Origin: Zygnema cylindricum
Taxonomy: Eukaryota > Streptophyta > Zygnematophyceae > Zygnematales > Zygnemataceae
NCBI GenBank assembly: GCA_037447655.1
Contig: JBBHKE010000070.1
Span: 62,001 to 126,000 of the forward strand
DNA length: 64,000 bases
Reading direction: 5' to 3'
Of this stretch, positions 2,945 through 35,851 are shown piece after piece. A model generated the notes under the pieces. That model ran no database searches, was not told the origin of the DNA, and worked only from the letters and a program-made list of their open reading frames with translations. The position numbers were made by a program, and so were the translations under genes. The first letter of the stretch is position 1. Each line of letters begins with the position of its first letter.

Positions 2945-3631
2945 GTGTTGATTTTAGGCGATCTCGGACGATATTATTTTACGGATATCGGAGCGCCGAT
3001 ATTGTGTACGGAAATCGGATTGCCGATATTGTACGGAAGGCAAGATCGAATCGTACGGAATCGAGTGACGATTCCACGTCACACACTTTTTGGCGGAAAT
3101 TTTGACACATATTTAGGAGCAGCCACCGACGGCTGACATTACCTATTTCGGCGTGTAGTCATTGGACCACATAGTGCACACATTTAGCAACAAGATTGGA
3201 GTGCACATGTATAAATAACAAGCATTCCACGGAAGAGATTATCTCTCTTAGAACAAGCTTTCATAGCAATTTAGTAGGCAATGATGTGCAACACTTTTAT
3301 TCATTGAAAACATCATTGTATAGAGATCACAGAGATTAGACATTGAGATCTAAGGAGGAGAATCCAGCTTAATTAGATGGAGAGTGTCCAGAGTGACAAT
3401 TGTAATTCCTACTTTTATAATCCTATTCAAAGCTGATTAAACCTGCCTCAAATCTATTCTCTCTATCTATTTCTACTCCCATCTCTAAACCCTTTGTGAG
3501 CCACATAAAAGCACTACCTTCTAGTGCATGATTTAGGCTTATCTACCTCAGCCCTCGGCCAGGGGCTAAGGTGAGCACCTAAATCGAATAGGAGGGAGGG
3601 AGAGAGGGAGGGAGGGAGAGAGGGAGGGAGG

Positions 3632-3670
<39 letters not shown>

Positions 3671-3716
3671 AGATACATATTAGAAATCGGCGATATTCAA
3701 CTTATCGCATGGGCGC
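2945..3716 (+). repeat. LTR of the unclassified element (right end approximate)
   Basis: It begins TGTTGATT straight after a polypurine run and contains a TATA-like box (TGTATAAATAAC, about 3208) followed by transcribed-looking sequence. A related sequence at 21613-22225 (start TGTTGGATTTGTACG, TATA box at about 21858, shared GGGCTAAGGTGA near the end) supports the LTR assignment. The right end may be at about 3590, before a GA-rich microsatellite. Alternatively it is at CTTATCGCA (3716), which is followed by TGGGCGCCAAAGTG, a plausible primer-binding site starting with TGG. Confidence 0.5.
3591..3676. repeat. (GGGA/GAGA)n microsatellite
   Basis: An almost pure purine run of GAGGGAGGGAGAGAGGGA type that degenerates into GA repeats. 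It lies in or just after the LTR that begins at 2945. Confidence 0.9.
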
Positions 3717-3736
3717 CAAAGTGTAAACTTTGTAAA

Positions 3737-3806
3737 ATGGCCAACCCGAGGATCGAACCCGTGACCTGTGTAACACTAGCTTTACCAACTGAGCTACCCG
3801 GCCGAT
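3737..3806 (-). other. tRNA-like sequence with a truncated anticodon arm
   Basis: Read on the minus strand it starts GGCCGGGTAGCTCAGTTGG (acceptor 5' side and a perfect A box). It has a B box GGTTCGATCC and ends in TTGGCC, which pairs with the start through a four-pair GGCC stem plus wobbles. Between the D arm and the variable loop there are only about 11 nt instead of 18, so the anticodon arm is reduced to a GTG/CAC mini-hairpin. It is therefore a tRNA-derived sequence and not a working tRNA gene. It lies 7-20 bp beyond the probable primer-binding site of the LTR ending near 3716. Confidence 0.6.
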
Positions 3807-3837
3807 ATGTATGTAAGCGAGTAACACTGAATTTATA

Positions 3838-4828
3838 CGGAACTCACCAAGATGGAGTCGAGAATCCGACGACAGTGGGAGTGGACATCAAGTCGACACT
3901 CCAAACCAAGTCTAATCCATCAAAGAAAGCGGCCAAATCTGAACAGGAAGACAACATGTCAGAAATTCAGGCCAAGAAAATTCCAAGGACCTACAAGGAG
4001 GTATTGCTAACCCTAAACAGCAATACGATAGGTAGTGGAGAATTTCAAGGGAGGGAGAAAGGAAATTTACCGAAACTTGGGAGGATAAGTAGCCTTGCCA
4101 CATCTCCATCCTCAAGGATTCGGGCAACGGTCGAAGTTCAGCCGGTCATACAGCCCATGGAGGAGAACCTGCAAAGAAAAATCACAGCGGAAGGCATGAG
4201 TGGGTTAAGAGGAGTTCACAAAGAAAAACTGACATCAATGTTTGAAATTGGACTCCACATGGAAAACCAAATCGCAGGAACAGCAGTAGAGGGAGAAAGC
4301 CAGATCGAGGGAGAAAGCCAGATCTCAGTCCAGGCAGGAGCCAAAGGAGAAAGGGAGACCGGAAACTCAGAATTGAAACCTCATCAAGGAGCAAGAAAGT
4401 CGTTCTTACCTCAAGATTCCGGGAGACAAGTAGGGAGAAGCCTCACGTCTCCGCCAGAGGAAGTCCACCACACAGGATGCGCAGCAGAAGGCGTGGATGG
4501 GAGAAAAAAGAAGGAAATCCAAAAACCTAAATTCCATGGCAAACTCATTTTTGAAAGATTAAGAGAGGAAAAGGGGGCACACAGCTTAGAGGAAGAAAGA
4601 AACCTAAGTCAGAAAAACACTCTAAGTCATGGCAGTCTAAGTGATAGAGGGAGTCTAAGCTGTAACATTCCACGCTATGGCAGAAAGGAAGAAGACTTAG
4701 AAGAAATTAAGGGAGAAGGTTTTAAGAAAACAAACCTAATACTTAAAAGTGCTAAGCTGTTAGAGCGCCTCCCACTATATGGATGCGACAAGGGCGGCGG
4801 TACAGGTACTTTTGTGAGCAAGCGATGA
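3838..4828 (+). pseudogene. Truncated second copy of the 543-aa element ORF
   Basis: Same reading frame as residues ~27-360 of the ORF at 1195-2826. It stops at TGA (4826-4828) because CGACGATGG in copy 1 is CGATGATGG here. The open frame extends upstream into the tRNA-like sequence, but this N-terminal part has no counterpart in copy 1 and is probably not real. The high identity of the two copies suggests a recent duplication or gene conversion. Confidence 0.6.
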
Positions 4829-4870
4829 TGGCGCGATCAAAAAGCAGGGTCGCACAATTAGAATGACGTA

Positions 4871-6040: not shown

Positions 6041-7181
6041 GTAATCGCAGCCACAGGTTTTTGCATCGAACGATCGAAATTGATCAAGCGACGACAATTT
6101 CATCACACGATGCTTCGCGAAAGAAAAATACGATCGCACATTTCGAGCGACGCAATGGCGACCACATGTTCAAGCATCGAGCGGTAGAAATTTGTCGAGC
6201 GACGACAAATTCATCACGCGACGCTTCACGAACGAAAAGTTGATCATGCGACAATTTGTGACATTGAAGTCGGTTCACTTCGCGACAGTGAAATCGACGG
6301 TTCCGGTTCACCGAATATTACGCGAATCCTGAATCTGGAGGATCGCACGAACGATGTGGATTACACGTCACGTAATCCTATTGAGGAGTCAAGAGCAAAG
6401 GCCAAAGTCGCCAGCGGCGCAATTCCTTTGTACGGCATACGGCTCATTTTGGTCCACGTACGACCAGACAGGATTCTAAGGACCACAGGTGGTCCTAACT
6501 GACAAAAATTTCACATACAGCAAGATCTTCTCGGTACTAATGAAAATTTTGCAGATTCACAGAGTACAGAATGTACGGAATAACTTTTTTACGCAGGTTC
6601 AGTACCATCAAGGCGCCGATCGCAAATTACCGATTCGCTGAAATCGAGGAGCACGGCAAGTAGAGTACCATTAAATCGCCGACCGCATATTACCGATTCG
6701 ATGAAATCGAGGAGCGAGGAAAATATCGACACGAGCTCGAGTGGGAGTATACCCTAGGGATATACATACTAGGGTTCTCATTTGTTTCTAATTACAGTTC
6801 AAAATGATATTAACACGAATCAAATTAAAGTGATGCATATTTTCTCGTCCTAAGTTATAACACTTTAATAGTTTCACCCTACCCAGATTTTAGATTTCAT
6901 GAAATTCTTGGTTATAGCTTTACATTTTTATCATTCAAAATGAGTGATAGAGAATCTCATTTTTGATATTAAATGCTATCGTGCCTTCGAAGTTTCAAAT
7001 TTTGTAATCAAAAAATTGTACACACTATTTGCGGCCACGACACAATACAACTTCAACGAGTCATTGTTAAGTGGTCTTTTTCGGAGAAACATATCATTCT
7101 GAGAAAAAAATTATCTGTTTTTCTAACCCAAATAGAAATTGCAACATCTTAGGGCTTTTTAGGGTAACTTAGGATTTTTAC

Positions 7182-7253
7182 AAGGTCGCCAGATTCTCGA
7201 GAGTGGAAATGTTGTTCACCAAAGTCCCCATAAGATTGTTTTTTGAGAGATCC
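7182..7253 (-). CDS. LRR exon (duplicate of 8854-8925)
   Basis: 72 bp, flanked by CAG and GTAAAA, encoding the LRR core LDLSKNNLMGTLVNNIS. It is identical in sense to the exon at 8854-8925 and lies in the direct duplication. Confidence 0.6.
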
Positions 7254-7569
7254 CTGATAATCACTGAAAACGAATCAGTTTTAGTCTCTTGATTCTTGCT
7301 TTTAGGACAAATCTGTGCCCTAGATTTTATCATTTCTCACTGAATTTTATGTTTTGACATTGAATATTGTACCTTACGAAGTTGTAACCAGCAAAAGTGA
7401 ACTCCAGAATGTGAAAAAAAGAAAAGCAATTGAAAGTCTCATAACCAGTTGTCACCATTGCAGTTGGTATGTTGAGCATCCGTTCATTTCAAAGTTGATC
7501 ATTATTAAACATGCTTTTTTTCATATGACTATTTACTTTGGAGTTGATTCTCACAAAAGAAAAATATTT

Positions 7570-7664: not shown

Positions 7665-7799
7665 GTAAGAAACTTATTATATATTTTTTTCATAAATCAG
7701 TTCCACATGTTTATTCATTACAGTTAACCAAATTAAGTACAAAAATGTGTTAGATTTTCGTGAAATCCGGGATTCGGCATGTCCCATACTAGGGAAAAT

Positions 7800-7898
7800 T
7801 GAGCCGGCCAGGGCTCGAACCTGAGACCTCAGACTTGAGCTCGAACGTGGGACCTCAGACTTGAGCTGCTAGCGCAGTAACCACTGTGCCACTAGCTT
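7800..7898 (-). other. tRNA-like module in TRIM LTR, with internal duplication
   Basis: The minus strand has an A-box-like TGGCACAGTGGTTACTGC, a B box GGTTCGAGCCC, and an acceptor 3' side CCGGCTCA pairing partly with AAGCTAG. A 26-nt segment covering the anticodon 3' side and T arm is duplicated, so the cloverleaf is disrupted in this copy. Confidence 0.65.
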
Positions 7899-8104
7899 GA
7901 TGTAGAGCCTGGCGGGTCCGTACCTATTTATTTTAGGCGCCTTCGAGTGTGACGTATCACATTCTACCCCGAATTGAACCGGCATTCACGTGCCAATCCA
8001 ACACCCCCCCTCACGGGAAGGCTGGTCAAACCATCCGCAATCCCGCTGGCTCCGATACCATGTTAGATTTTCGTGAAATCTGGGATTCGGCATGTCCTAT
8101 ACTA

Positions 8105-8330
8105 GGGAAAACTGAGCCGGCCAAGGCTCGAACCTGGGACCTCTGACTTGAACTGTCAGCGCACTAACCACTGGCACTGTCAACGCACTAACCACTGCAC
8201 TAACCACTGGTAACCACTGGCACTGTCAGCGCACTAACCACTGTGCCACTAACCACTGGTAACCAAACCACTGTATCATGGCTCGAACCTGGGACCTCTG
8301 ACTTGAGCTGTTAGACTGTGCCACCACCTC
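8105..8330 (-). other. tRNA-like module in TRIM LTR, expanded in the A-box half
   Basis: The anticodon stem CTGAC/GTCAG is perfect, with the seven-base loop AGTTCAA (anticodon position TTC). The T arm is CCAGG-TTCGAGC-CTTGG and the acceptor 3' side CCGGCTCA. The A-box half is multiplied: units of CACTAACCACTG (plus strand) recur between about 8158 and 8270, making this LTR about 117 bp longer than its partner. Confidence 0.6.
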
Positions 8331-8853
8331 AATGTAGAGCCTGGCGGGTCCTTACCTATTTATTTTAGGCGGCTTCGAGTGTGACATATCACATTCTACC
8401 CCGTATTAAACCGGCATTAACGCCAATCCAACAAAATCCTCATCCATTCTCATTTGTTTCTAATTACAGTTCAAAATGATATTAACACGAATCAAATTAA
8501 AGTGATGCATATTTTCTCGTCCTAAGTTATAACACTTTAATAGTTTCACCCTACCCAGATTTTAGATTTCATGAAATTCTTGGTTATAGCTTTACATTTT
8601 TATCATTCAAAATGAGTGATAGAGAATCTCATTTTTGATATTAAATGCTATCGTGCCTTCGAAGTTTCAAATTTTGTAATCAAAAAATTGTACACACTAT
8701 TTGCGGCCACGACACAATACAACTTCAACGAGTCATTGTTAAGTGGTCTTTTTCGGAGAAACATATCATTCTGAGAAAAAAATTATCTGTTTTTCTAACC
8801 CAAATAGAAATTGCAACATCTTAGGGCTTTTTAGGGTAACTTAGGATTTTTAC

Positions 8854-8925
8854 AAGGTCGCCAGATTCTCGAGAGTGGAAATGTTGTTCACCAAAGTCCC
8901 CATAAGATTGTTTTTTGAGAGATCC
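8854..8925 (-). CDS. LRR exon
   Basis: 72 bp between CAG and GTAAAA. It encodes LDLSKNNLMGTLVNNIS followed by TLENLATL, one complete LRR in phase 2. Confidence 0.65.
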
Positions 8926-9191
8926 CTGAAACCCTCAAAACATGTTTATGTGTGTTAGTTTTTTAACAAAATACTGTTCTCGTGAAAAAATCATGAACCT
9001 TCTCTTATTTTTGTTTTTTTGTTTTTTAATCAATACAAAAAAATACTAACCAAATCCAAAGGAAAAAATTTGCAGCTTTGACACAAACTAATCAACAAAA
9101 AGCACTTTTGAGAATTGTTCATATAGATGTGTAGATTTGTATTTGATAAAAGTATTCTAGTCAGTTAAAACGGTAAAACAGTTTTTCTTAC

Positions 9192-9263
9192 TGATATCTA
9201 AGCGATTTCAAATTGCCAATTTCTGGAGGAATAGGTCCTCTTAATCCGCAACCTGCACAAGTC
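9192..9263 (-). CDS. LRR exon
   Basis: 72 bp between CTAG and GTAAG, encoding LTCAGCGLRGPIPPEIGNL, a typical plant-specific LRR (GxIPxxIGNL). A decayed relative in the opposite orientation is at 27112-27178. Confidence 0.75.
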
Positions 9264-10254
9264 CTAGAAGAAAGCAAATTCCTTTATCAGTTTTTATTAA
9301 AAGCTTCATAACCACTTTTTAATTTTTATCTGAACACTAATTTGCAAATGAACCTTAAGAAATAAAAAAAAGTACAAAATAAGTTCAGTTTTCCCTATTT
9401 TAAGTTAAACCATTACAGTTTATGGAAGTAAAGAAGAAAAGCTGGTAGTGAAATATGAGCGTGAAGGTCTATGTTTATGTTTGGATTCTCAAACATGATA
9501 TATTTATTTTATACAAAAAAAGTATGTATATTTTTGTGTTCTATCTTGAAGACGTACCGTTTTTTCACCATGACCTATAAACAGTAAAAATATTTACACA
9601 TGAATTATGAAGCTAAATCGATCAAAATTTACTTTTTGAATTTCTATTTAGCATTTCCTTTGAAAGGTGAATACACAAATTCTACTTCACCCTCTACAAA
9701 AGATCAAAGGCAAAAGTTTGCTTTCTTTTATTTTTCACATATTTACTTAGACTGGCATTTTTTCGACAGGTTTTATACATAGTCTCTGCATTTGTTATTC
9801 GAATGCATGTAAATTTGAAAATTTCACAATCTGCAAAAACTAAAAATCTATTTTCCGAAAATAACCCATCGCATAAGATAGAACATACATCAGCTTTTTT
9901 TCTGCAATATTGTGAATATCAAATTTTATCGAATGAGAAAGTTTAAATTTTCGTGAAATTAGTGAACAAAAATTTGGACTAAGAAAAGAGGTTGTCCCTA
10001 CAAAAGTTGCTGAATATTCTGCATTCAATTCAAATATTCGAATAATGTACATATCCCTATTGTCTTACAAACATTTGGCGATATGGGTTGAATATGTTTG
10101 TCATTAATGAAATTGGGGAAGTTTTCTTAGTAAAATATAGAAGTTTAGTTAAAGGCATGAAAAAGAACTTGATTTAAGACTCAAATTTTTTGACGTTTTT
10201 AGGGGTAAATGTTGCGAACCCATTTCTGAGAAAAGGTTTTAAAATTTTACTCAC

Positions 10255-11904: not shown

Positions 11905-12116
11905 TCGCTCCCTCTCCTTTTCCCTCTCCCTCTCCCTCTCCCTCTCCCTCTCTTCCTCTCCCTCTCCCTCCCGCTCCCTCTCAATCTCCCTCCCCCCCTC
12001 CGTCCCCTCCCCTTCCCTCCCTCCCGCCCTCCCTCCCTCCCTTTCCCCTTTCCTCCCCCCTCTCCTTCTTTCCCTCTCTCTCTCCCTCTCCCTCCCCCCC
12101 CCCCTCCCTCCGTCAC
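11905..12116. repeat. Pyrimidine microsatellite (CCCTCT)n
   Basis: About 210 bp of almost pure C and T on the plus strand, ending four bases before the first LTR of the TRIM array at 12120. Confidence 0.9.
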
Positions 12117-12214
12117 TTCTGTTGACGTATGTGAAACGTGCGATCGATATCCAAAATTGTGGTAAAAATCCACATTAAAACCTATATAAAATCGGACCCA
12201 CCAGCGTAACATCT

Positions 12215-12287
12215 GGGCTGGTGGCACAGTGGTAGTGAGTTCGCAGCTTAAGTGAAAGGTCCCACGGTTAAAATCCTGGCCGGCTCA
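12215..12287 (+). other. tRNA-like cloverleaf in TRIM LTR 1
   Basis: 73 nt with acceptor GGGCTGG/CCGGCTC, D arm GCAC-GTGA (one mismatch), anticodon arm TTCGC-AGCTTAA-GTGAA, and T arm weakened by an insertion. It ends in A with no encoded CCA. Confidence 0.7.
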
Positions 12288-12502
12288 TCAATCCCTTTAT
12301 TGGGATCGTCCATTCTATCCCCCGATTCTAGGAATCTTAACATGGTATTAAAGCCAGGGGGACCAGGTTTACATGGACAATTATGACCGGCTACCTCTCA
12401 AGGGGGGGTGTGACGTACGAAAAGTGTACCGCTCGATACCCGAAATTGTGGTAATATCCACACTAAAACCTATATAAAATTGGACCCACCAGTGTAACAT
12501 CT

Positions 12503-12575
12503 GATCTGGTGGTACAATGGTTAGTGCGCTCGCAGCTTAAGTGAAAGGTCACACGTTCAAATCCTGGCCGGCTCA
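12503..12575 (+). other. tRNA-like cloverleaf in TRIM LTR 2
   Basis: 73 nt: acceptor GATCTGG/CCGGCTC, D arm GTAC...GTGC, anticodon loop AGCTTAA, T loop TTCAAAT, discriminator A. The T stem is partly unpaired. Confidence 0.65.
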
Positions 12576-12782
12576 TCAATCCCTTTATTTGGATCGTCCA
12601 TTCGTTCTAGGAATCTTAAAATGGTATCGGAGCCAAGGGGACCAGGTTTACATGGACTATTATGACCGGCTACCTCTCGAGGGGGGGTGTTGACGTACGT
12701 GAAACATGCGATCGATATCCGGAATTGTGGTAAAAATCCACATTAAAACCTATATAAAATCGGACCCACCAGCGTAACATCT

Positions 12783-12854
12783 GAGCTAGTGGCACAGTGG
12801 TAGTGCGTTCGCAGCTTAAGTGAAAGGTCCCAAGTTCAAATCCTGGCCGGCTCA
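12783..12854 (+). other. tRNA-like cloverleaf in TRIM LTR 3
   Basis: 72 nt: acceptor GAGCTAG/CCGGCTC (one mismatch, one wobble), D arm GCAC-GTGC perfect, anticodon arm TTCGC/GTGAA with loop AGCTTAA (anticodon position CTT), variable loop AGGTC, T arm CCAAG-TTCAAAT-CCTGG with one mismatch. This is the best-preserved copy in the array. No TTTT terminator follows directly. Confidence 0.75.
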
Positions 12855-12925
12855 TCAATCTCTTTATTGGGATCGTCCATTCTATCCCCCGATTCTAGGA
12901 ATCTTAACACCTCCCTCCTTCCCCC

Positions 12926-14652: not shown

Positions 14653-15320
14653 TATTGGAGGTGGATTGGCAAAAGCCATGAAATTATACACAAGAGAAAG
14701 ATCAATGCATTGGAGAGAGAAATTGATATGTATTTGGGATAATTTCATTAAGTGAGAAAAGTCACTTATATACAAAATACACAGTGCTAATTACTGTGGA
14801 GTCTAAGCTCTTTTTGATGCGCTGTAACAAAAGGATCATATTCTAGATTCAAATTAATGTGTTTGAGACTTTACGCAATTGACGTTATGACTAGATTCTA
14901 TTGTATGTAGTCTACATTCTAACGTATGTAGTCTAAAGTCAAAAGGATTGACTTTAGGGCGGCAATGTACAAAAGTAGTTAAAACCTAAAATAAAGACGT
15001 AGAGTCAAGCGACAAAAAGTATGATGACACAATTAAAATACAAAAGAGAATCATAACAAGGAGAAATAAACATACGTCGGACAAACAGAGAGACCGTCGC
15101 CCAAAGGACTTATACGTAGGGCGGCAAGACTGGACCGACGTAGGTAATGACAAGTCAGCCAAAAGATTTGTACGTAGGGCGGCAAGATTGGACCGACGTA
15201 GGAAATGACAAGTACAGACAAGAGCAAAAAGAGAGTCAAGAGTGGACTGGCACATGTAATGAAAGGTACAGACGCGACCAAGAGTGAAAAAAGTGAAGCA
15301 ACGCTAAATGACCCTTAACA
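14653..15320 (-). repeat. 3' LTR of copia A
   Basis: 668 bp, minus-strand ends TGTTAAGG...CAATA, so the last dinucleotide is TA and not CA. It contains an imperfect internal tandem repeat (GGCGGCAAGA..GGACCGACGTAGG at about 15119 and 15178). Confidence 0.9.
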
Positions 15321-15372
15321 CCCCCCCTCGAGCGAAAACTAGGAAGTAGATTGAGATGAAATTAAAGGAAAT

Positions 15373-15882
15373 TTAGCCAAGAGGAGAAGGAAGACGAAGG
15401 CTAGAGGGGAGGCAATGCTGCTCAAAGTGAGGACGACGAATAGCCTTCGTGAGATAATCAACCACTTGGTCGGCGAAATTGACATAAAAAAACTCGAGAG
15501 TGCCATCTTCAACCCGCACCCAAGAGTAATGATATTGAATGTCGATGTACTTGTTCCTTTTGTGGTGAACACGATTGCGGATCAAAGCAAGGGCTCCTTG
15601 AGAATCAGAAAAAATAGTAGGAGCCGAAAGAGGAAATCGAAGATTGGAAAGCAGAGTGCGAAGCCATACAACTTCCTTGGCGGTGTGACAAGCGGCCATA
15701 TATTCCGCCTCAGTGCTGGAGCATGCCGTGGTAGGTTGTTTTCTGCATGACCAAGAGATAAGACCATTGCCCGACAAGAAGCACGAGCGAGTGGTGGAAC
15801 GGCGAGAAAGCTCATCTTGCACCCAATCTGAATCAACAAAACTCGTAAGAGCACTAGAGCCAAAGGAAGAGTGTGGAGACAA
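15373..15882 (-). pseudogene. Copia A RNase H domain
   Basis: 170 codons open at the 3' end of pol. RNase H residues are visible in order: FVDSDW (first Asp), TEAEYMAA (Glu), DSQGALALI (Asp), and the copia-type tail HKRNKYIDIQYH. It would degrade the RNA strand of the RNA-DNA hybrid in the virus-like particle. The preceding RT segment is in another frame, so it is not translated as part of an intact polyprotein. Confidence 0.85.
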
Positions 15883-16905
15883 AAAGTTTTAGTGCCCTGT
15901 AGATAACAAAAGATACGTTTGGCAGCGGCAAGATGATCAAGGGAATGACGTTGGACGAACTCATTGAGCTTACTGACAGCTGTGGCAATGTCAAGGTGGG
16001 TGGGCTGCATGGCGTACATAAAGGCCCCTACCATCGAGTTGTAAGTGGCATGGAGGGAGAGGAGAGGGGCATTGGCATCCAAAATAGTGGAAAAGGAGCA
16101 GTCTGCCATGCCAAAGCGTTCCAAAAGATCAAAGGTAGAGGTCTCCTAAGTGAGAGAGAGGGTGCGAGCTGAGCAGTTACGAGAAACTTGACTGCCCAAA
16201 TAATACGTGAGCTCACCTAGATCGGCCATGTCAAAATGGGTTTGAAGGAGAGATTTGACAATAGAAATTTCATAGAGGGAAGGACCTATAATAAGTATAT
16301 CAATAAAAATGGCAACAATGATTAAAAAGGTTTTCATAGAGGGAAGGACCAATAAGAAGTAGATCATCAATAAAGATGGCAACAATGATTAAAAAAGTGC
16401 CGCAGCCACGAGAGTAAATGCTAAAATAGGCATCAATTTGGGAAAATCTTTCTTTTTTCATAATGGCATCTATGGTATGGTTCCATACACGCGAGGATTG
16501 CTTCAATCCATAAATTGTTTTAATGAGATGGCAACGAGATGTTCAGATCCAAGGGAAATATAGCCCTTAGGATGATGCAATGATGTAAATGTCCTCGGTT
16601 AAAATCCCATTTAAGAAAGCATTCTTAACATCCATTTGATGAACATGGAAATCATGTTCAACAGCTAAAGCAATTAAAGTGCAGATAGTTGTCAACCGTG
16701 CAATTGGAGCAAAGGTTTCAATGAAATCTATACCTTCGATTTGGGAAGAGCCCTTCACCACCAAGCGAGCTTTGTATTTGTCCACTAATCCATCCGCTTT
16801 TTGCTTTACACGGAAGACCCATTTAGAGCCGATTGCCTTTCTTCCAAGGGGAGCGGGAACAGGATTCCATGATTTTTTATAAATTAAGACATTGAATTCG
16901 GCATC
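15883..16905 (-). pseudogene. Copia A reverse transcriptase, frameshifted
   Basis: Minus-strand pieces in several frames: GRKAIGSKWVFRVK and DKYKARLVVKG (about 16760-16850), IDFIETFAPIARL and HQMDVKNAFLNG (about 16610-16740), then FIDDLLLIGPS (about 16350-16380), DLGELTYYLGSQ (about 16190-16220) and YNSMVGAFMYAMQPTHLDIA (about 15970-16040). These are the usual copia RT blocks in order. The catalytic YVDD-type motif occurs twice because of a local duplication of about 62 bp. At least three frame changes are needed to read it through. Confidence 0.85.
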
Positions 16906-17094
16906 AGCGGCGGTCGTCCAAACAGAGGCATCATGACGTCTTAGGGTGGTTTTGAGAAAGAAAGGGGCTGATATAAGAGAGGCAGAGGCCCCACACGAGT
17001 AAGCATAAGCAAGAGAGGCATGGCCTATGGAGGTAATAAGCCGAGAGGGGGGAAATTTAAGGCGTGAGGGGTTTTGGCAAAGTAAAAGAGAAGG

Positions 17095-18410
17095 CTAAGG
17101 AAGAGGGGAAGTTCCAAGAAGAGGAAAAGGCTCAGGTCTAGAAAGAGGTGAGTGAGAAAAAATTGTGGGGGAAAGATAGTCAAAAAAAGGATCATCTTGG
17201 AAAAATAGGAGAGTGGAGGTAGTATCATTGGAATTTGTGATAGGATGGAGAGGAAGGGTGGTTGATTGGCTGGCACCAGTGATGGGAGCAGCTAGGAAAG
17301 CAAAAGAGGGGGGAGAAGATGGAGGAGGAGGGGAATTTGAATATGGTGAGGGAAAAAATAGGGAAGGATTATGAATAGTCGTTTGATTGAATGTAGAGGG
17401 GTGGCAAGGTGTGAGGTAGGTGAGGTCAAATGGTTGACGAGATTGAAGGAGAAGTTTTGCGGGAAGAGGGTCATGGAGGGTGAGGGAAGGAAAGTTGGAT
17501 AAAAGAGGAAAAGGGGAAAAGAAGGGCGTACGAAATAAGGTTTGGAGAAGTGGCGTTTTGTTGAAAGTTACTTCTCTGATGGTGATGACACGATTTTGAG
17601 AAGGACTCGAGATACAGTAGGCTTTGGAATTTAGAGCGTACCAAACGAAAATGCCACAAAATGCGTGAGCACCTAATTTGCTGTCCAATTTGACGAGATC
17701 TTTATACCACGCTTCACATCTAAAGATTCTAAGGTGGCGTATATCTGGTTTGACAGAGTACCACGCTTCCATTGGAGTAGATTTAGGTAAAACGTTACTG
17801 GGACAAAGATGGTATAAGTAATTTGCGCAAACGAGAGCCTCTGCCCAAAATTCATAAGGCAAATTTGAAAAGTACAGCATATAGCGTGACATGTCAGATA
17901 ATGTTCAATTGTACCTTTCTACGATGTCGTTTTGTTATGGCGTCCGAGGCGGTGTAAGTAACGCGAGACTCCATGTTGCGTGAGAAATTCAGAAAATTGG
18001 TTGGACAAAAATTCGCCACCGTTGTCACTTCATAAGACCTTGATCCGTTTGTCGTGAAATTTTTTTGCCAACGCCTTAAATTCCTAAAATCGTGCAAAAG
18101 CGTCAGATTTATGACAATTTGGATACACATGGGAAAAACGAGTGGCATGGACAATGAAAGTGATAAAATAAAGCGATCCACTATAGCTGAGAGTGCGAAT
18201 GGGACCACACATGTCCGTATACACAAGTGCAACTAGTTCATTGATGACGGTAATGTTAGTGGGAAATGAGTGACGCGACATTTTTTGTTGCACGCAACCG
18301 TGACAAAAATCCAAAATTTTGTTAGAAAATGAATTTAGTTTGGTAACAAGATTTGGCAAGATACGCAAACTATCGCTATTTAAATGACCATATCTTAAAT
18401 GCCAAAGTTG
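17095..18410 (-). pseudogene. Copia A GAG-pre-integrase and integrase
   Basis: In order on the minus strand: the pre-integrase zinc motif end FCHGCVQQKMSRHSFP, then VYTDMCGPIRTLS (first catalytic Asp), SDNGGEFLSNQFSEF in another frame (second Asp, about 18000-18040), and LPYEFWAEALVCANYLYH, which marks the copia integrase core end. A Pro/Ser/Thr-rich linker follows. At least two frame breaks are present. Its job would be insertion of the cDNA into host DNA. Confidence 0.8.
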
Positions 18411-18819
18411 AAACTTTTGACGTTAGCATTTAAAAAAAATTCTTTGGTGTATTTAAAGATTTTGGACATACATAGAATCTAGTGCTACGCCAAAACCTAT
18501 AGTACTATTGTCTTTTCTATCAATAAACGTTACTTTATCGTTATTAAATTCAACTTTGCCATAAGTCCGACCAACAAACCTTGTTCATGTATAAAAGTAC
18601 CGCCATGCCGAATGTGACAAAGATGAGAAAGGCAGAAAGGCAGCAAACCAACCCATTCATGGGTGACAAACCAACGACTAAGACTACCATCTACAGCCGC
18701 CCTCGAGGCTCGGAGATAAAAAGCGTACCTTGTGGAAATTGAGTATCCGAGTGACATATTTCGTAAGGGCAACATTACATATCCAAATTCGCGTGAGGGA
18801 GGGAGGACAAAAAGGGAAG

Positions 18820-19844
18820 CTACTGGAGTGGGATAATTAGAGGGAAAATGTGGGGAGAAAGCGGTCGACCTAGGGAGGTTAACGGATTTTGAAGAGGCAT
18901 AGTGCGCTGCGGCGTTAGATCATTCTGGGAGGGATCGAGAAAGGGAATAATGGTGAGGATAGGGAAAATTTGGAGGGAAAGAATGGTGTGGAGGAGCTGG
19001 TGGGGTGGCATAGGCAGCGTTGGCATTCCCTCCATTTTTAGGGGGATTGGAAGCCTCGGTTGCTTTTCGCATCGCCAATTTTCGACAATCTTCAACGGAA
19101 TGTTTGTTTTGCAGTAAGCGCAAAACAAACGCTGCACCCCCCTTGAGTTAGACTTTTGATTTTCACCAAGAAAAGTATTTGCATGAGAGAGATTTGTAGC
19201 ACAAAAAGCGAGAAGTTTGGTCCATTCATGCAAAAGATTTCTACAAAGAGAGTAAAAAGGAATAGATTGATCTAAATTGTCAAACGAGGAAATGAAAGGG
19301 GAAAAGATTTCAGGGAGTCCTCCCAAAAGAGTAGAGGAGAGGTCCTTGTCGGAAAGGTGAACACCTATCATGGTGCACTTTCCAAAAGACAATTGGATCG
19401 TGCTAATCCAGTTTTGTATGGACTCCGTAGGCTTTTTCATTAAGTTAAAAGACGCTCGTTTTTGAATTCGGCGAGCGGCCCATGTGGTTTGAATATAAGC
19501 TTCTTGAAGACGATTCGAAGCCTCGGCCGAAGAGGAGGCGCCAAAAATAAGACGAGTGCGCTCGATAGTAAGTGACATCACTAGGCGAGCGTGCGCATCC
19601 TCGTCCTTTTATTTCCATGTAGATATTGCCAACTCTTTTGTAGCTATTTTTGCTAGTCTATCAGTAGAGGAAAAGATAGGAGGTTTTGAAATTGTTATAA
19701 AATTGTCCCAAATCTTCTCGTGTTTGAAAAAATGCATGGCAAAAAAAGACCAATCATAGAAGTTTTGGCCATCAAAGTTTCGGATGCTATTACAAGTGGC
19801 ATGTCGGGCCCATAACCTATTGGAGGTGGATTGGCGGAAGCCAT
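18820..19844 (-). pseudogene. Copia A gag; start codon inside the LTR
   Basis: The likely start is the ATG at 19844-19842, inside the 5' LTR. From there the frame reads MASANPPPIGYGPDMP through the LTR end and the primer-binding site. The main gag frame (19581-18820) has copia gag features such as ESIQNWISTIQLSFGKC and LSSTLLGGLPEIFSPF. The zinc knuckle is split between frames: FCAYCKT in one, KHSVEDCRKL in the next, together giving CX2CX4HX4C. Confidence 0.75.
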
Positions 19845-20486
19845 GAAATTATACAAAAGAGAAAGATCAATGCATTAGAGAGAGAAATTGATTTGTATTT
19901 GGGATAATTTCATTAAGTGAAAAAAGTCACTTATATACAAAATACACAGTGCTAATTACTGTGGAGTCTAAGCGTTCTTTGATGCATTGTAACAAAAAGG
20001 ATCATAATCTAGATTCTAATTAATTTGTTCGAGACTTTACGTAATTGACGTTACCACTAGATTCACTGTATGTAGTCTACATTCTAAGGTATGTGGTATA
20101 GAGTCTATAGGATTGACTTTAGGGCGGTAATGTATAGAAGTAATTAAGACCTAAAGAAGCGACGTAGAGTCAAGCAACAAAAAGTATGATGAAACAATTA
20201 AAATACAAAAGAGAATCATAACAAGGAGAAATAAACATACGTATGACAAACAGAGAGATCGTCGCCCAAAAGACGTGTGCGTAGGGTGGCAAGACTCGAT
20301 CGACGTAGGGAATGACAAGTTGGCCAAAAAACTTGTACGTAGGGTGGCAAGACTCGACCGACGTAGGAAATGACAAGTATGGACAAGACCAAAAAGAGAG
20401 TCAAGAGTGGACCGACACATGTAATGAAAGGTACAGACGCGACCAAGAGTGACAAAAAGTGAAGCGACGCTAAGTGACCGTTAACA
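19818..20486 (-). repeat. 5' LTR of copia A
   Basis: 669 bp, clearly homologous to 14653-15320 with scattered substitutions and small indels. It is directly followed (minus strand) by the primer-binding site. Confidence 0.9.
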
Positions 20487-25211: not shown

Positions 25212-26396
25212 GTGGGACGTCACATGGTCAAAAAAGTCAAATTAGGGAAAAGACAAAATAGTGATCAATAATTTAATTGACATTTTTGAGATTGGAAATT
25301 TGGAATTGAGAATTGGTAATTGACATTAGAGAATTAAACCTTAATGAAATTGGAAAAAAAAAAAAAAAAAAAAAAAATTGGAAGTAGAATGAAACTGATA
25401 GCTGAAGGCGTTTCTCCTACAAAACATTCATTCACATAGCGACACGTGGCATGAGTGGCCGTCCCGAACTTTCGTTCGAAGAAATGAGTGGCTTCCTGAC
25501 GTTTTTGATGACGTCAGGTGGCGTCAAAAAGCTGCTAACGTCCAAACAGAATACCGTACATATTTTTCTCGAGTCTAGTGCGAAAAGCACAAATTCCTTG
25601 GTTTCGTACGAATTGAAAACGTAGGAAGCGGAGAGTTCCACGGGCTTCATTTAACACCGCGCGGAATCGTTCGGTGATATTAAATTCTCATTGGTCGCCG
25701 AATGTGACACGTCACGCATACGTCAAGCATTCTTTACTTTATGTGAGATTGTTGGCGCACTCAGTACTTACAGAGAAACTGAGTTGCCGGCCGAGAAAAG
25801 GACAACTTTTGTTTCACGCCGGCAGCTGCTAATTAGTGTAGTGACTTGACTCCAGATCACGTGGAAAATGTGAGACCAAAGGTCTTATTGCCACCGAAAC
25901 CATAACAATATTTTGTCGTTTTCTGCTAGAATGATTGTGGACAAATGATTAAGGTCAGGGAATCGTGAAGCACGTGTAATGGCACAGCACACGTGATGAT
26001 GGTACTTTCATCGACCGTACATCTACTACACCGTGAATGGGTTACGGTGAAGTTTCATTAGACGAAAAGTGAGATTGTTTACAGAAATTCAGACCTCCCC
26101 GTATTATGCTGATCAGAGTTTGGAGTGGGTAGAGATAGGTCAAACACAGAGTAGCTTCAGACATATTTGTTACTTCCCATTATAAGAATAGAAGTACAAT
26201 TGATGTAACACAAATTGGACAGATTGTCCCTATTAATAAAGTTGGATTCCTGTTCTGTCTTTTTCTGTGAATGGTAATTGACTAATCCTGAGCACACACC
26301 TAAATAGCCTAAAGCAAACACACTTACTAAGTGGCGGTCTAATAATAATCTGCCACGTGTCAAATGTCCATCGCACAATAAGACGTGTGGGACTTC
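25212..26396. other. Spacer with a poly-A tract, no gene seen
   Basis: It contains a 24-base A run (about 25353-25378), GTAC-rich repeat fragments, and at about 26030 a CACCGTGAATGGG sequence resembling the TIR of the small TA-flanked elements. No coding exon was identified. Confidence 0.5.
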
Positions 26397-26619
26397 TGTT
26401 GACGTACGTAAAACGTGCCGATCGATACCCGGAATTGTGGTAAAATCCACACTAAAACCTATATAATATTGGACCCACCAGTGTAACATCTAAGCTGATG
26501 GTAAAGTGGTTAGTACATTCACAACTAGAGTGAAAGGTTACAGGTTCAAATCCTGGCCGGCTCATCAATCCCTTTAATGGGATCGTCCATTCTATCCCCC
26601 GATTCTAGGAATCTTAACA
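26397..26619 (+). mobile_element. Solo LTR of TRIM family 1
   Basis: 223 bp, TGTTGACGTACG...AATCTTAACA, like the LTRs at 12120-12909. Flanks ACTTC and ACTTA agree in four of five bases, a likely decayed target duplication. Confidence 0.85.
26492..26564 (+). other. tRNA-like cloverleaf in solo TRIM LTR
   Basis: 73 nt: acceptor AAGCTGA/CCGGCTC (weakened), D arm GTAA...GTAC, perfect anticodon stem TTCAC/GTGAA with loop AACTAGA (anticodon position CTA), variable loop AGGTT, T arm ACAGG-TTCAAAT-CCTGG, discriminator A. Confidence 0.65.
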
Positions 26620-27009
26620 ACTTACTTCTGCATGTCCTGACCTGACAAAAACTGCAAACACTGCAAACAGAAACTGCAAACTGTACTGATTTAATCCCGC
26701 TACGATTCCCCTCCCGAAAATATCGCCTATGCTAACCAAACCGATTCGCCTATCATATGCACACAATACAAATGCGAATCTGTGTGCCGGAGAATCGCCC
26801 GGAATCGCACCAAAAACCAACACTTACATGGTAGGCAAATGAAAATTTTTGGTCGGTGTAAAAATCATTGACGATTTTCAATATCCGATCTTACTCACGT
26901 GGTACCAATTAATTATGAACACGTGGATTACAGAGTCTGCGCAATGGTTCTTTAATTCCAATGACTATAAATAACGATAAATAAAATATGGAAAATTGAG
27001 CTTGGTTTG

Positions 27010-27990
27010 TATATTTTTTGTTCTTAAGGTTCCCATTTGAATTGTTAAGATAAGATTCAAAAAAGTTTGAAGCTATTAATGCAAACTAACAGAGTAATTT
27101 TCTTTTTCCAGGAGCTGCGTAGGTTGTGGATTAAAAGGATCTATTCCTCCATAACAACATGAAATAGCTTTATTATTTGTAAGAGAAAATATTTTCCCGT
27201 TTTAACTGACTAGAATACTTTCATCAAACACATATTTACACATGTATATGGCTAATTTTACAAAAAATATTTTTGTAGATTATTGTACCTCAAAGCTGCA
27301 AAATTACTCTTTTAGATTTGATGCATTTTAGTATTTTTTTGTATAAATTCAAGAAAAAACAAGAAAGAAAAAAAATGGCTCATAAAAGTTTCACGAAAAC
27401 AGTATTTTGTTAAAAATTAACACGCATAAACATGTTTTGAGGGTTTCAGGGATCTCTCAAAAAACTCTCTGATGGGGAATTTAGTGAGCAACATTTCCTC
27501 TCTCAAGAATCTGTAGTCCTTGTAAAACCATCATGGCTTATAGATTTTGAAATTTATTTTTGGGTTAGAAAAACAGATTATGTTTTCTTAAAATTATATG
27601 TTTTTCCGAAGCAGACCAATTAACAATGACCTTTTGAAGTTATATTCTATCTTAACCTTAAATAGTGTTTACAATTTTGAGATTACAAAATCGAAACTTT
27701 AAAGAGTATGATAGCATTTGATATCAAAAATAAGATTCTTTTTCACTCATTTTGAGAGATAGAAATGCTATAATTTCATGTAATTTAAAATGTGGATAAA
27801 TGCATCCTTTGTTGTTCTACAACCACCGTTGCAAGAGGAGGACCAGCAGTAGTAGTGGAAGTAGACATGGAAAACAACAAAAGCTATCAAGCATCTACTC
27901 AACAGCCAACTTTCAGCTTACACAAAATATGACTCAGAACGCCAATATGCCTCAAAGACGCCAATATGCCTCAAATTTGTCACAGTGATA
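27010..27990 (+). pseudogene. Inverted, decayed copy of the LRR gene end
   Basis: It is the plus-strand homologue of the minus-strand region 9263 to 6780. Exon 27112-27178 reads SCVGCGLKGSIPP then TAA and is 67 bp, not 72. Exon 27450-27521 reads LDLSKNSLMGNLVSNIS and then a TAG stop. Introns between them align with 8926-9191. Downstream, 27800-27985 has an open frame with CKRRTSSSSGSRHGKQQK and a repeated NANMPQRRQYA-type phrase. This could be a juxtamembrane segment, but the kinase is not seen. Confidence 0.7.
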
Positions 27991-28909: not shown

Positions 28910-28914
28910 TAAAC

Positions 28915-29385
28915 TATTGAATGTGATGCCATAAAAAGGCTGAAAAGATTAATATGTCGAAAGATCAAGAAAAGCCAAAACAAAAAAAACACTAAGATAA
29001 AATAAGACAAGGAAGAAAGTAACGACAAACAAAGAAACAAGTGAGAGGTTTGTCGTTCAAGTGTCTTTGATTTTGATTAATTGTTTACAACGACACAAGA
29101 GAGTCTTGTAGTAAGACGAGGTAACGGTTAGCCGCAAAAGGCTCTAAAAGGTACATCTAGCCTAGAGCGTAACTTAGGAAAGTACATCTAGTTATGATAA
29201 AAGGAATCTAAGACTAAAGAAATTCCTACGCAAGAATCATCAATTCTAATAGAGGTATGTACATTCCACTAAATAAAGTACAGAATGCTAAACCGAAGTA
29301 CAAGACTTATAGCGTAGCAAATAGAACTCTAAAAGTAGTGTAGGAAACAACAAGTAGTGTAGAATGCTTTAATTGTATTTCAACA
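28915..29385 (-). repeat. 3' LTR of copia B
   Basis: 471 bp, minus-strand TGTTGAAATAC...CATTCAATA, matching 35412-35851. Confidence 0.9.
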
Positions 29386-29800
29386 CCCCCCCTCGATTAA
29401 AGCATGGTTAGTCACGAAGACCGGCATTGTAAATGTGATGACGAAATAACGGACGACGGAGAGATTTGGTAAAAAATCGGCAAGCTGAGAGCCGGATGCA
29501 CAATGAGAGAAGGAAACGGTGCCATCAAGAATTTTATCACGCGTAAAATAAAATTGTATATCAATATGTTTTGTGCGCGTATCATGGATAGGATTTTTCA
29601 TAAGAGCCAATGCCCTTTGAGAGTCACAAAAAATGGGGGTGGGAAAAGATGGAGGAAAAGAGAGATCGGAAAGAAGGCGTCGGAACCAAATAGCCGATTT
29701 CGTGGCGGTAGTGACGGCCATATATTCTGCCTCCGTTGAGGAAAGAGCAACAGTGTTTTGTTTGCGGGATGACCAAGAGACGAGACCACCACCTAGAGAA
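29380..29800 (-). pseudogene. Copia B RNase H domain
   Basis: Minus-strand frames carry VVVSSLGHPANKT, then ATKSAIWFRRLL, FCDSQRALALM (catalytic Asp) and TRTKHIDIQFYF with a conserved copia end (SGSQLADFL). The TEAEY part is in another frame. Confidence 0.75.
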
Positions 29801-30059
29801 AAACATACACCGGAAATGGAACGACGATCGTCGAGTTGATTTCCCCAATCCGCATCGTATAATCCAATAATCGAAGTGTCCGGAGAAAAAGAAGGGGAGG
29901 AGTGCGAGGGAGGAGAAGTATGGGAAAAAGTGAGGTGAAGATGTTTTGTTCCTTCGAGGTATCGAAAGACACGCTTGGCGGCTTAGAGATGAGTTTGAGT
30001 GGCACAATGCTAGAATTGAGACAAAAGACAAATGGCAATACATATATCCGGTCATGTAC

Positions 30060-30787
30060 CAAGCATAGCATACATTAATTTTCCAACAATCGACCGATAG
30101 AGTGAGTTTATATCTCCTTAGGCATTCCCATCGGAGGACTCTTTTGTGAGAGTGGTATTCGGATCAAGAGGGGTAGGCACCGAATTGCAATCGGACATTG
30201 CAAAATGCTCAAGAAGATCAAGAATGTAGTGCTCTTGACTCATTTGCAAAATGCGTGCAGACCTTTGACGTAAAATAGTGATGGCTAAACAATAGTCAAG
30301 ATCGCCTAAATCGGTCATAGGCCAATAGGATGAGAGAATGTCTTTTACTTGAGTAATAGAGGACTTACTAGGACCTGCGGGAACTAAATCATCTACGTAA
30401 ATAATAATGATGATTAACTGGTTTCCTGTACCTCTAATATAAATCCTAGGATCAGCACTGATTTCTTTAAAACCTTCTTTAATTAATGCTGCGACAAGGG
30501 TTTGATGCCAAACTCTAGGTGCTTGTTTAAGACCATAAATAGACTTGCGTAAATGACAAACAAGAGTTTTTATACCAGGAACAGCGTAACCAGGTGGTTG
30601 TTCCATAAAAATATCTTCTGCAAGACTACCATGAAGAAAAGCAATTTTGACGTCGAGTTGCTCAAATTCCCAATCATGAAGAGCTGCAAGGGACAAAATA
30701 GTACCGATGGAGTCAAACTTTGCAACAGGGGCAAAAGTTTCGTTGTAGTCAACGCCCTCTGTCTGTAAGTACCATTTGGCGACGAGC
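30060..30787 (-). pseudogene. Copia B reverse transcriptase, C-terminal part
   Basis: It starts inside the RT at LVAKWYLQTEGVDYNETFAP (minus strand, about 30787). It continues with EFEQLDVKIAFLHGSLAEDI, YGLKQAPRVWHQTL, the catalytic YVDDLVPAGPS and TDLGDLDYCL. About 200 codons are uninterrupted, so this part is better kept than in copia A. The missing N-terminal RT half lies beyond the insertion, at 32110-32320. Confidence 0.85.
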
Positions 30788-32135
30788 TGTCATGCCGCAT
30801 TATGTCGGGACATGTATTTTGTTTATTTGTAGGAATATTACGTGTTGAGGCTACACTAATTCCGGTTGTGTTAAAATCATGCTTGAATGCAGGATTTATT
30901 GTGTACTTACTTCGAAGAGACGCCGGGAATTCCGCGGGAGACACGGAGATGCATATTCTCGTGAACGACGCCGTCCGTACTTTTATTTTTGTCGCAGATT
31001 TTGGAGTGACGCGACGTACAATTTCAAGACATTACCTCCACGACGTACGGTTCCAAAACATTAGTGATGCGACGTACGATTTTGAAACATTGGTGAGGCG
31101 ACGTGCGATTTCGAAATGTTGGCGACGCACGCTGATTGGTTGTATTTTAAGTCGTGAACCCATGTAGGTTCATGCATTTCCATGTAGGTAGGAAGGGTTT
31201 TAATCCGCAGATTGTGAATTTTGTAATGTAGGCATATGGTTCTGGTCGCTTATTGGCCAGGACCCAAACTAGTCGTAAATTGTACAGTGAAATACTTTCA
31301 CGTGAATGGTTAGTTGGCAAATGTCAGAAATTAGAATTTTGGCTATTTCGTTAGTACTTAGGCGATTGCGTTAGGTTTGTACTCTCATAATTTGAGAGTA
31401 CAGGAATTGTTCGAAGAGGATTTAGATTTTTCTGTCTTTTTCCCTTGTCTTTTTCCCTAGTCAAATTGTCAGTTTTTTCCCTGCAAGGCTTTTTCTGCCT
31501 TAGTTTTTTGAGAGCTTAGCTTTTCTCTTTCCTCATTAAACTTTCATTGTAAGACCTACAAGTTAATTCACTCGGTTTCGGCCGGAGTCCGCACGGTTTC
31601 GCTTCAACAACGTCTTTTAGTGTGGATTCTACCTGCTTTCTCAGGCTGTTTACGAACCTTTGTGGATGCCTTTGGTGAATTAGTGTTTGACTTTTTCTTG
31701 TCTAATTTTCGTTGCCTTTGTTGGAGTTTGCTGGTAGTTTGTTAGAATCTGGTTATCTCGGATTCTCTATGGCTTCCAATCGCTTGCTTTCTATTATCAT
31801 TTTTTGCAATTGGTTCCCAGTGTGTCAAAATCCAGTTTTCTCGAATTTTATGCAGATTTTTAACGTTGCTTACTTGTATTTTCTTGTTGCTATTTTTACT
31901 TGTTTGTTAGAATTCGGTTATTTCGGATTCTCTGCATATTTTCATTTCTTGTTTTCTGGTTGTAATTTTCTATAATCGGCGTGCCAGGATCCGTGTATCT
32001 CGGATTCTCCGTAGATCTCTATTGTTGTTTTCTTGCATTTTTCCGGTTTTGTTTTTCTTTATTTGAAATCCTAGACCTAACTCTTTTAAGGAATACGCCC
32101 AGACCATGGAGCCTAGTGGCTACCCATCGGCTTAG
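30788..32135 (+). mobile_element. LTR-type insertion in copia B
   Basis: It begins TGTCATGCCGCATTATG, like the minus-strand start of the solo LTR at 4871-6040, and splits the RT codons for YKA and LVAKW. The second half (31700-32000) has four imperfect units of GTTAGAATCTGGTTATCTCGG type. Its right junction lacks a clear CA end and has probably suffered a deletion. No coding region was recognised. Confidence 0.6.
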
Positions 32136-32340
32136 CAGTGCCTTGTAACGATCGATAGTACCATCCGCCAGTCGTTTAATTTTGAAGACCCATTTTGAAC
32201 CAATCGCACGACGATTTGGTGGAAGAGTACAAAGCGTCCTAGTATTGTTTGTCATTAATGCGTCATAATCCTGTGTAGCCGCAAGTCGCCACATGTCAGC
32301 ATCAAGTCGTTTCAACGCAACATTTAATGTAGGAGGATCT
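32110..32340 (-). pseudogene. Copia B reverse transcriptase, N-terminal part
   Basis: Minus-strand frame with MWRLAATQDYDALMTNNT, RRAIGSKWVFKIKR and DGTIDRYKA, the start of the copia RT domain. It is cut off by the insertion ending near 32135. Confidence 0.8.
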
Positions 32341-32372
32341 TTGACGTCGGCAAGGTTAGCGTGAGCAAGATT

Positions 32373-33752: not shown

Positions 33753-33866
33753 TTTTCCAAGAATACAACCATGACAAAAGTCAATCTTGTTTTCATTAAA
33801 AATATCGATGCCATTTACAAGCCCTTTTCCAAGGGAAGCTAGACTATCACCATTAAGATGACCGTA

Positions 33867-35429: not shown

Positions 35430-35851
35430 CAAAAGCCGAAAAGATAAATATGACAAATTATCAAGATAGAGAAGATAGGAAAGGAGTAACGACAAACAAG
35501 GAAACAAGTGAGAGGTTTGTCGTTCAAGTGTCTATTTGATTAGATAATTTACATAGCGACACAAGAGAGTCATATAGTAAGACGAAGTAAGAGGTAGCCG
35601 AAAAGGCTCTAAAAAGTACATCTAATCAAGAGCGTAACTTAGGAAGGTATAACTAGTTACGGTAAAAAGGAATCGTAGTCTAAAAAGATTCGTACGCAAG
35701 AATCATCAATTCTAATAAAGATATGTACATTTTGCTAAATAAAGTACAGAACGCTAAACCAAAGTACTAGACTTATAGCGTAGCAACTAGGACTCTAAAA
35801 ATAGTGTAGAGAACAACGAGTAGTGTAGAATGCTTTAAGTGTATTTCAACA
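35412..35851 (-). repeat. 5' LTR of copia B
   Basis: 440 bp, shorter than its partner by small deletions, directly followed on the minus strand by GGTTATGGGCC. Confidence 0.9.

Follow-up and report, generated by a model that had tools for sequence, protein, structure and literature searches.

The LTR array at 12120-12909 on the + strand of the window, which here means the whole 64,000-nucleotide stretch of Zygnema cylindricum DNA under analysis, raises the question of what a tRNA-like unit does in the LTR of a TRIM. The unit could act as a promoter, be kept as a folded RNA, work as a tRNA gene or be carried along as a passenger. We consider it probable that the array is a Helenus-type TRIM that carries, where R begins, an internal promoter of the Pol III type and depends on a Copia-like element for mobilization in trans. 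This kind of TRIM is already known as Helenus, and the new point is the covariation of the cloverleaf at the level of subfamilies. The array has the tandem order LTR-internal-LTR-internal-LTR, and its features, together with a related solo LTR, are as follows.

12120-12342, + strand: F1 LTR 1 (TGTTG...TAACA)
12215-12287, + strand: tRNA-like unit of LTR 1, with an extra T-arm base; no Rfam match at E ≤ 1
12343-12408, + strand: internal 1, 66 bp, with PBS TGGTATTAAAGCC at 12343-12355 and a G7 tract at 12402-12408
12409-12621, + strand: F1 LTR 2 (middle), 84% identical to each outer LTR
12503-12575, + strand: tRNA-like unit of LTR 2; Rfam tRNA score of 24.0 bits, under the cut-off
12622-12687, + strand: internal 2, 66 bp, with PBS TGGTATCGGAGCC at 12622-12634 and PPT GAGGGGGGG at 12679-12687
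12688-12909, + strand: F1 LTR 3
12726-12742, + strand: U3 inverted repeat TGTGG...CCACA of LTR 3 (LTR position 39)
12751-12757, + strand: TATA-like TATATAA of LTR 3, 32 nt 5′ of the unit
12783-12854, + strand: tRNA-like unit of LTR 3; RF00005 at 45.1 bits, ARAGORN tRNA-Lys (ctt)
from 12790 and about 12833-12843, + strand: A-box-like and B-box-like sequences of the LTR 3 unit
26397-26619, + strand: solo F1 LTR with an F1b-type unit at 26492-26564 (Rfam 31.5 bits) and flanks ACTTC/ACTTA

The three LTRs of about 220 bp, the two 66-bp internals, the PBS and the PPT that the earlier note had described were all recovered in place. The outer LTRs share 95% identity, both internals start with a PBS-like TGGTAT...AGCC, and a G7 tract lies directly 5′ of the TG of LTRs 2 and 3. 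Compared to TGGTATCAGAGCC, the array PBS has two mismatches in internal 1 and one in internal 2. This 13-mer with up to three mismatches gives 12 matches where 10.95 are expected and is not rarer than chance, so that the position of the PBS is what counts. No TSD was found around the array, whose flanks are ACTTC and CCTCC. The ACTTC precedes both the array (12115-12119) and the solo LTR (26392-26396), which may be due to chance, target preference or shared history.

A 72-73-nt tRNA-like unit, claimed for every LTR, is indeed present in all three, but only that of LTR 3 exceeds the Rfam tRNA cut-off of 29 bits (E 2.2e-6 in a whole-window scan), and this is also the only one of the three LTRs that ARAGORN calls. 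At the gathering score, the Rfam scan of the window gave two matches, both tRNA. The unit is the most variable part of the four F1 LTRs of the window, with 64/433 differences, compared to 54/551 before it and 15/303 after it. None of these four units has the cloverleaf as its best fold, and in no case is the folding clearly superior to that of the shuffles. The stem TTCAC/GTGAA that had been quoted for the array is absent from its LTRs and occurs in the solo LTR at 26397-26619; in LTR 2, the stem reads CTCGC/GTGAA with one pair broken. The pairs TTCGC/GTGAA and TTCAC/GTGAA, previously taken as a hint of selection on structure, differ only by a G-U to A-U step in which one side has changed.

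Further copies were sought in the 352.8 Mb assembly of 2689 contigs. The 3′ end of the unit, with up to two mismatches, occurs at 584 + 501 = 1085 places, and the reversed control at 0 + 1. At least three families are present: F1, to which the array belongs; F2, also found in the window at 8433-7748; and F3. Genome searches with the F1 and F2 LTRs gave at least 82 matches (from 40 scored of 787 candidates) and at least 64 matches (from 40 scored of 773 candidates), respectively. From 100 retrieved stretches around matching places, given L-numbers as loci, and from the window, we aligned 66 F1, 50 F2 and 38 F3 full LTRs, of which four F1 LTRs and one F2 LTR belong to the window; the sample is not random, since F1 and F2 copies were taken by greatest similarity to the query and F3 copies from the first contigs listed.

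The commonest sizes are an LTR of 222 bp with an internal of 66 bp in F1, and 229 bp with 57 bp in F2 and F3. Two-LTR elements measure 495-523 bp in F1 (n = 18) and 515-578 bp in F2 (n = 13), so that they agree with the size definition of Helenus (under 1000 bp, two LTRs, gene-less), the absence of genes being judged by size. The PBS lies directly 3′ of the 5′ LTR and the PPT 5′ of the 3′ LTR, as in the definition of Helenus, and 24 of 35 internals start with TGGTATCGGAGCC, TGGTATCAAAGCC or TGGTATCAGAGCC. A perfect 5-bp TSD surrounds 29 of the 46 elements with at least two LTRs and is missing from the other 17; mispaired flanks of different elements match in 6/2070 cases. Among two-LTR elements, perfect TSDs occur in 13/18 of F1, 7/13 of F2 and 8/13 of F3. 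Some insertions look recent, as LTR pairs are identical at L019 (221/221, no TSD), L032 (222/222, with TSD) and L079 (229/229, with TSD).

The unit is a regular part of these LTRs. It is present in all 66 full F1 LTRs, with a length of 63-74 nt (72-74 nt in 64 of 66), and its region is spanned in all 50 F2 and 38 F3 full LTRs, one F3 unit being reduced to 53 nt. A later SINE insertion in a subset of copies, by which the earlier note could have been refuted, was thus not seen, in a sample biased by the selection of copies for similarity to the LTR or the unit end; a SINE is ruled out by the position of the unit inside TG...CA LTRs with PBS and PPT and by the 5-bp TSDs. At 12 loci chosen outside the window and covering F1a, F1b and F2, 22 of 25 units pass RF00005, at 44.4-58.4 bits; this and the count of unit ends in the genome exceed chance. 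The exact 23-mer of the unit gave no match in viral and prokaryote collections.

The F2 element of the window was discovered by the search with the 3′ end of the unit. It is a TRIM like those of the array, with an LTR that has diverged. Its features and those of the Copia elements in the window are listed below.

8061-8433, − strand: F2 5′ LTR, with a unit enlarged by internal tandem duplications
8004-8060, − strand: F2 internal, 57 bp, with PBS TGGTATCGGAGCC (8060-8048) and PPT GAGGGGGGG
7748-8003, − strand: F2 3′ LTR, with a 26-bp tandem duplication in the unit and TTTT just after the unit
14653-20486 and 28910-35851, − strand: two Copia elements in a degraded state, whose LTR pairs share 90% and 81% identity

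The tandem duplications differ between the two F2 units of the window (7813-7867 and 8152-8265), neither of which gives an Rfam tRNA match at E ≤ 1; both are directly followed by TTTT. Units longer than 73 nt occur in 17 of the 50 F2 LTRs. A 483-bp repeat with 100% identity (6775-7257 and 8447-8929) flanks this TRIM on both sides, and 26982-27798 is an inverted relative of 8552-9402 at 77%. Elsewhere in the window, a 1033-bp repeat with 99.6% identity lies at 1269-2301 and 3838-4870, with long open frames at 1192-2826 and 3575-4828, the former of which has no Pfam match. Searches with other sequences gave 51 hits for an F-box/RCC1-type protein, one of them a relative at 77%, as well as mTERF exons, and the few sources named among at least 120 relatives of Copia were Adiantum, Hibiscus and a bacterial MAG.

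The two Copia elements have the PPT and the LTR start of the TRIMs and a different PBS, GGTTATGGGCC, which we take to correspond to the anticodon loop of initiator tRNA-Met. The combination of PPT and LTR start is found five times in the window, compared to 0.17 expected, and one of the five is unrelated. The 5-bp TSDs and this common PPT and LTR start make a Copia-type partner probable. The two Copia elements of the window are themselves rejected as the partner because they share the PPT with the TRIMs but not the PBS; the features to be matched in an autonomous partner are the LTR end TAACA, the PBS TGGTATCRGAGCC and the PPT GAGGGGGGG.

The earlier note regarded the array as a tRNA counterpart of Cassandra. 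The array is indeed a TRIM whose LTRs contain a tRNA-like unit, but the kind is not new. Helenus was named in 2024 by Kojima for TRIMs with a tRNA-like LTR, from fungi, animals and one plant, Selaginella moellendorffii, according to the accessible part of that paper (PMC10886601). The copies studied here have in common with it a length under 1000 bp, a tRNA-like LTR sequence, a PBS and PPT in a short internal, 5-bp TSDs (in fungal and plant members), solo LTRs, several families per genome, tandem arrays (there LTR-11_DR) and an isotype that is often nonsensical for a tRNA. The LTR and internal of Helenus-1_SMo measure 120 and 85 bp, compared to 222 and 66 bp (F1) or 229 and 57 bp (F2 and F3) in the present genome. 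In the same part of the paper, Pol III transcription of Helenus is called unproven, predicted RNA structures are said to give no support for tRNA function, and retained cloverleaf pairing is not reported; what is added here is the covariation of the cloverleaf, a second tRNA-like unit in the genome and a swap inside one element (PMC10886601). Other reports of TRIMs with a tRNA in the LTR were not found among the matches listed.

Cassandra, as far as the accessible part of its description goes (PMC7215508), also has a small-RNA gene in the LTR, the plant PBS TGGTATCAGAGC and arrays of about three LTRs, and its transcripts are said to read through the LTRs. Its LTR contains 5S rRNA, whereas the LTRs of the window are tRNA-like and the Rfam gathering-score scan returned tRNA only. 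The tandem TRIMs of Gao et al. 2016 (PMC4717578) include L3I2 arrays as in the window; TRIMs are known from a lycophyte and algae in that study, and the word "tRNA" is absent from its main text as accessible. Retrozymes, in the part of their description available (PMC4918200), are likewise gene-less plant retrotransposons with a structured RNA in the LTRs and a tRNA-Met PBS, but they have a hammerhead ribozyme, Ty3-gypsy-like boxes and 4-bp rather than 5-bp TSDs. No hammerhead match was obtained at the gathering score in the window or at 12 other loci.

Arrays similar to that at 12120-12909 recur in the genome. L037 contains three F1 LTRs within the perfect TSD ATATT, in which the outer LTRs, with F1b-type units, are alike at 211/223 positions and the middle LTR, with an F1a-like unit, agrees with them at 195 and 196 of 221. 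Two F3 arrays, at L122 and L121, have three and four LTRs, respectively, and perfect TSDs. The array of the window has the same pattern of like outer and unlike middle LTRs as L037, but without a TSD. Plain unequal crossing-over fits this pattern poorly, as it would give a middle LTR resembling its neighbours; the arrays might instead have formed when a dimeric RNA was retrotransposed or when a circle with one LTR recombined with a resident copy.

Exchange also reaches into the unit. In an F3 element with a perfect TSD (L111:464-980), all differences between the two LTRs fall in the 5′ half of the unit; the 105 nt that precede the unit and the 80 nt that follow it are the same in both. In this one element, one of the units has exchanged its 5′ half for the head of a different tRNA-like unit, and this foreign head also occurs in an LTR-like stretch of L028. 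The latter stretch (L028:176-482) is of another type, has a different tRNA-like unit (ARAGORN Ala-ggc, 283-355) and ends in CAACA, after which an F1 internal and an F1 LTR follow to form a chimeric array. An odd LTR cluster at L118:578-1940 shows four unit ends at a spacing of 243 bp, not about 286 bp, and an inverted copy.

The earlier note would have been contradicted by copies in which the unit neither surpasses the remaining LTR in conservation nor covaries. Within families, the unit is in fact not better conserved: the mean pairwise difference for unit and whole LTR is 0.077 and 0.076 in F1 and 0.072 and 0.069 in F2, and the unit ranks 56 of 150 windows (F1) and 121 of 157 (F2) in conservation. 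Between families, by contrast, it is better conserved, and it covaries between subfamilies. The modal letters of the unit agree at 63/72 positions between F1 and F2 and at 69/72 between F1 and F3, and the alignment scores of 103 (shuffles up to 19.5) and 132 (shuffles up to 12), respectively, compare to 9.5-18.5 outside the unit (U3, the 33 nt 5′ of the unit and the stretch 3′ of it), at or slightly above shuffles. The similarity of F2 and F3 is flat (0.90 in the unit, 0.88-0.91 in the rest), and this pair is therefore uninformative on conservation of the unit. F3 combines an F2-like LTR with an F1-like anticodon arm.

Among 98 units (71 distinct), 95.1% of cells are paired. Double changes were counted in 46 cells, compared to 12.3 in shuffles that ignore the relatedness of the units; none of 500 shuffles was as high, and versions slid along the sequence reached at most 13. 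Eight pairs have a double change, against 4.2 in shuffles (6/500 as high) and 3-7 in slid controls, and further pair types number 25 against 23.3 (84/500 as high). The signal comes mostly from three events, namely a C-G to U-A change in the D-stem of F1b and U-A to C-G and C-G to G-C changes in the anticodon stem of F2; both F1b and F2 also show a change of G-U to A-U. The modal units of F1a, F1b, F2 and F3 each keep 21/21 cloverleaf pairs, and the exact cloverleaf is the minimum-energy fold of F1a, F1b and F3, not of F2, with fold-energy z values against shuffles of −1.94 (F1a), −2.48 (F1b), −0.66 (F3) and −1.13 (F2). In a simulation that presumes independent random changes, all 21 pairs survived three stem changes in 4573/400000 trials and five in 2137/2000000.

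Two other structures accompany the unit. The U3 inverted repeat reads TGTGG/CCACA in 57/65 F1, TGTGA/TCACA in 45/50 F2 and TATGG/CCATA in 36/38 F3 LTRs. Six control stretches have five-pair arms in 0-8 copies each, with one F1 exception (47/65), which lies directly 3′ of the unit and is a separate hairpin. A CCC-loop-GGG with family-specific loops follows the unit in 54/65 F1, 45/50 F2 and 34/38 F3 LTRs.

These data could be explained by selection of the cloverleaf as an RNA, for processing, stability or reverse transcription, beyond any promoter role. The complete pairing of the four modal units, the excess of double changes and the rarity with which random changes keep the pairing agree with such selection, which is made slightly likelier by the cloverleaf folds in three of the four modal units. 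It nevertheless stays doubtful because only about three double-change events lie behind an excess measured against relatedness-blind shuffles, the event-like measures are weaker, the modal F2 unit does not fold as a cloverleaf, the energies are modestly better than those of shuffles, and the four decayed F1 units of the window are not best folded as cloverleaves. Furthermore, the partial swap in L111 suggests that the F2 anticodon arm may have come in ready paired, and import of a paired arm is the main alternative to compensatory change. It is equally tentative that the unit is kept as a folded RNA module, not only a DNA promoter, and exchanged between families as a cassette, or, with a similar degree of doubt, that the unit, the U3 inverted repeat and the CCC-loop-GGG hairpin form a structured R that is processed (e.g., by RNase P/RNase Z) or read in reverse transcription. 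Far less credible is that the TRIM spreads a tRNA gene that functions as such. ARAGORN does label the units, mostly as Lys-ctt (F1), Glu-ctc (F2) and Pyl-cta (F1b and some F1), but the label shifts with drift of the loop. T33 is near universal in decoding tRNAs; here, among 129 units with a length of 72-73 nt, a single one has it, a few units with an extra base elsewhere being read out of register, and a decoding tRNA is made unlikely by this position, which is almost never T. This agrees with the lack of support for tRNA function from the predicted Helenus structures in the accessible part of that paper. None of 20 sampled host tRNA genes, from 63 listed matches, is close to the unit, the best scoring 55 compared to 144 for the unit itself and up to 25 for shuffles.

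The remaining question is which polymerase transcribes the element. A Pol II promoter with a TATA-like box might drive the TRIM, in which case the unit would be a passenger of the R region, kept by common descent or recombination, rather than a working promoter. The TATA-like box (TATATAA or TAAATAG) is located 30-32 nt 5′ of the unit in 6/6 LTRs of the window, although plant tRNA genes, too, have TATA-like boxes near −30. In line with Pol II, T4 is absent from 56/65 F1 LTRs and from all 35 internals examined (22/22 in F1), so that a Pol III transcript of F1 would have no standard stop; for the F1 array itself the absence is not significant, as 102/500 shuffles also lack T4. The unit is, moreover, not the best-conserved part of the LTR within families. 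It is by far the best-conserved part between F1 and F2 or F3, however, and TTTT follows it directly, within 4 nt of its GGCTCA, in 41/50 F2 and 35/38 F3 LTRs (0/65 in F1), which tells against Pol II; after this TTTT, a Pol III transcript would end early in the 5′ LTR. Consensus pairs of A-box and B-box occur in 5/6 LTRs of the window and once elsewhere in it, compared to a mean of 1.2 and at most 5 in 60 whole-window shuffles. Box B is GGTTC in all four modal units, and box A is TGGCA (TGGTA in F1b)...AGTGG, compared to TRGCY...YGG of most Helenus. Judged from these sequence features, the Pol II explanation appears rather unlikely, and Pol III would be moderately preferred over it.

The life cycle proposed for the Pol III-type TRIM could be outlined in a few steps. 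The tRNA-derived unit would sit at the likely U3/R border of a gene-less TRIM of about 510-515 bp, where its A and B boxes may act as an internal Pol III promoter. Since both the Pol III boxes and the Pol II TATA-like box point to a start at the unit, the unit would lie at the start of R. The RNA would begin at or just before the unit and carry it in R at both ends. Presumably, the PBS pairs with initiator tRNA-Met, and the plant tRNA would prime minus-strand synthesis there. Reverse transcriptase and integrase would be supplied in trans, probably by a Copia-type element.

The finding also gives a warning for tRNA annotation because these LTR units are reported as tRNA genes by ARAGORN and Rfam. 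The definition of Helenus was based on consensus sequences and included a single plant family in the accessible part of its description, and the present genome offers about a thousand unit-end places in several families. This natural variation, with some copies that look recently active, is enough to tell whether the unit serves as a DNA promoter or is selected for its RNA fold, and the TRIM is short enough for transient transcription and transposition assays.
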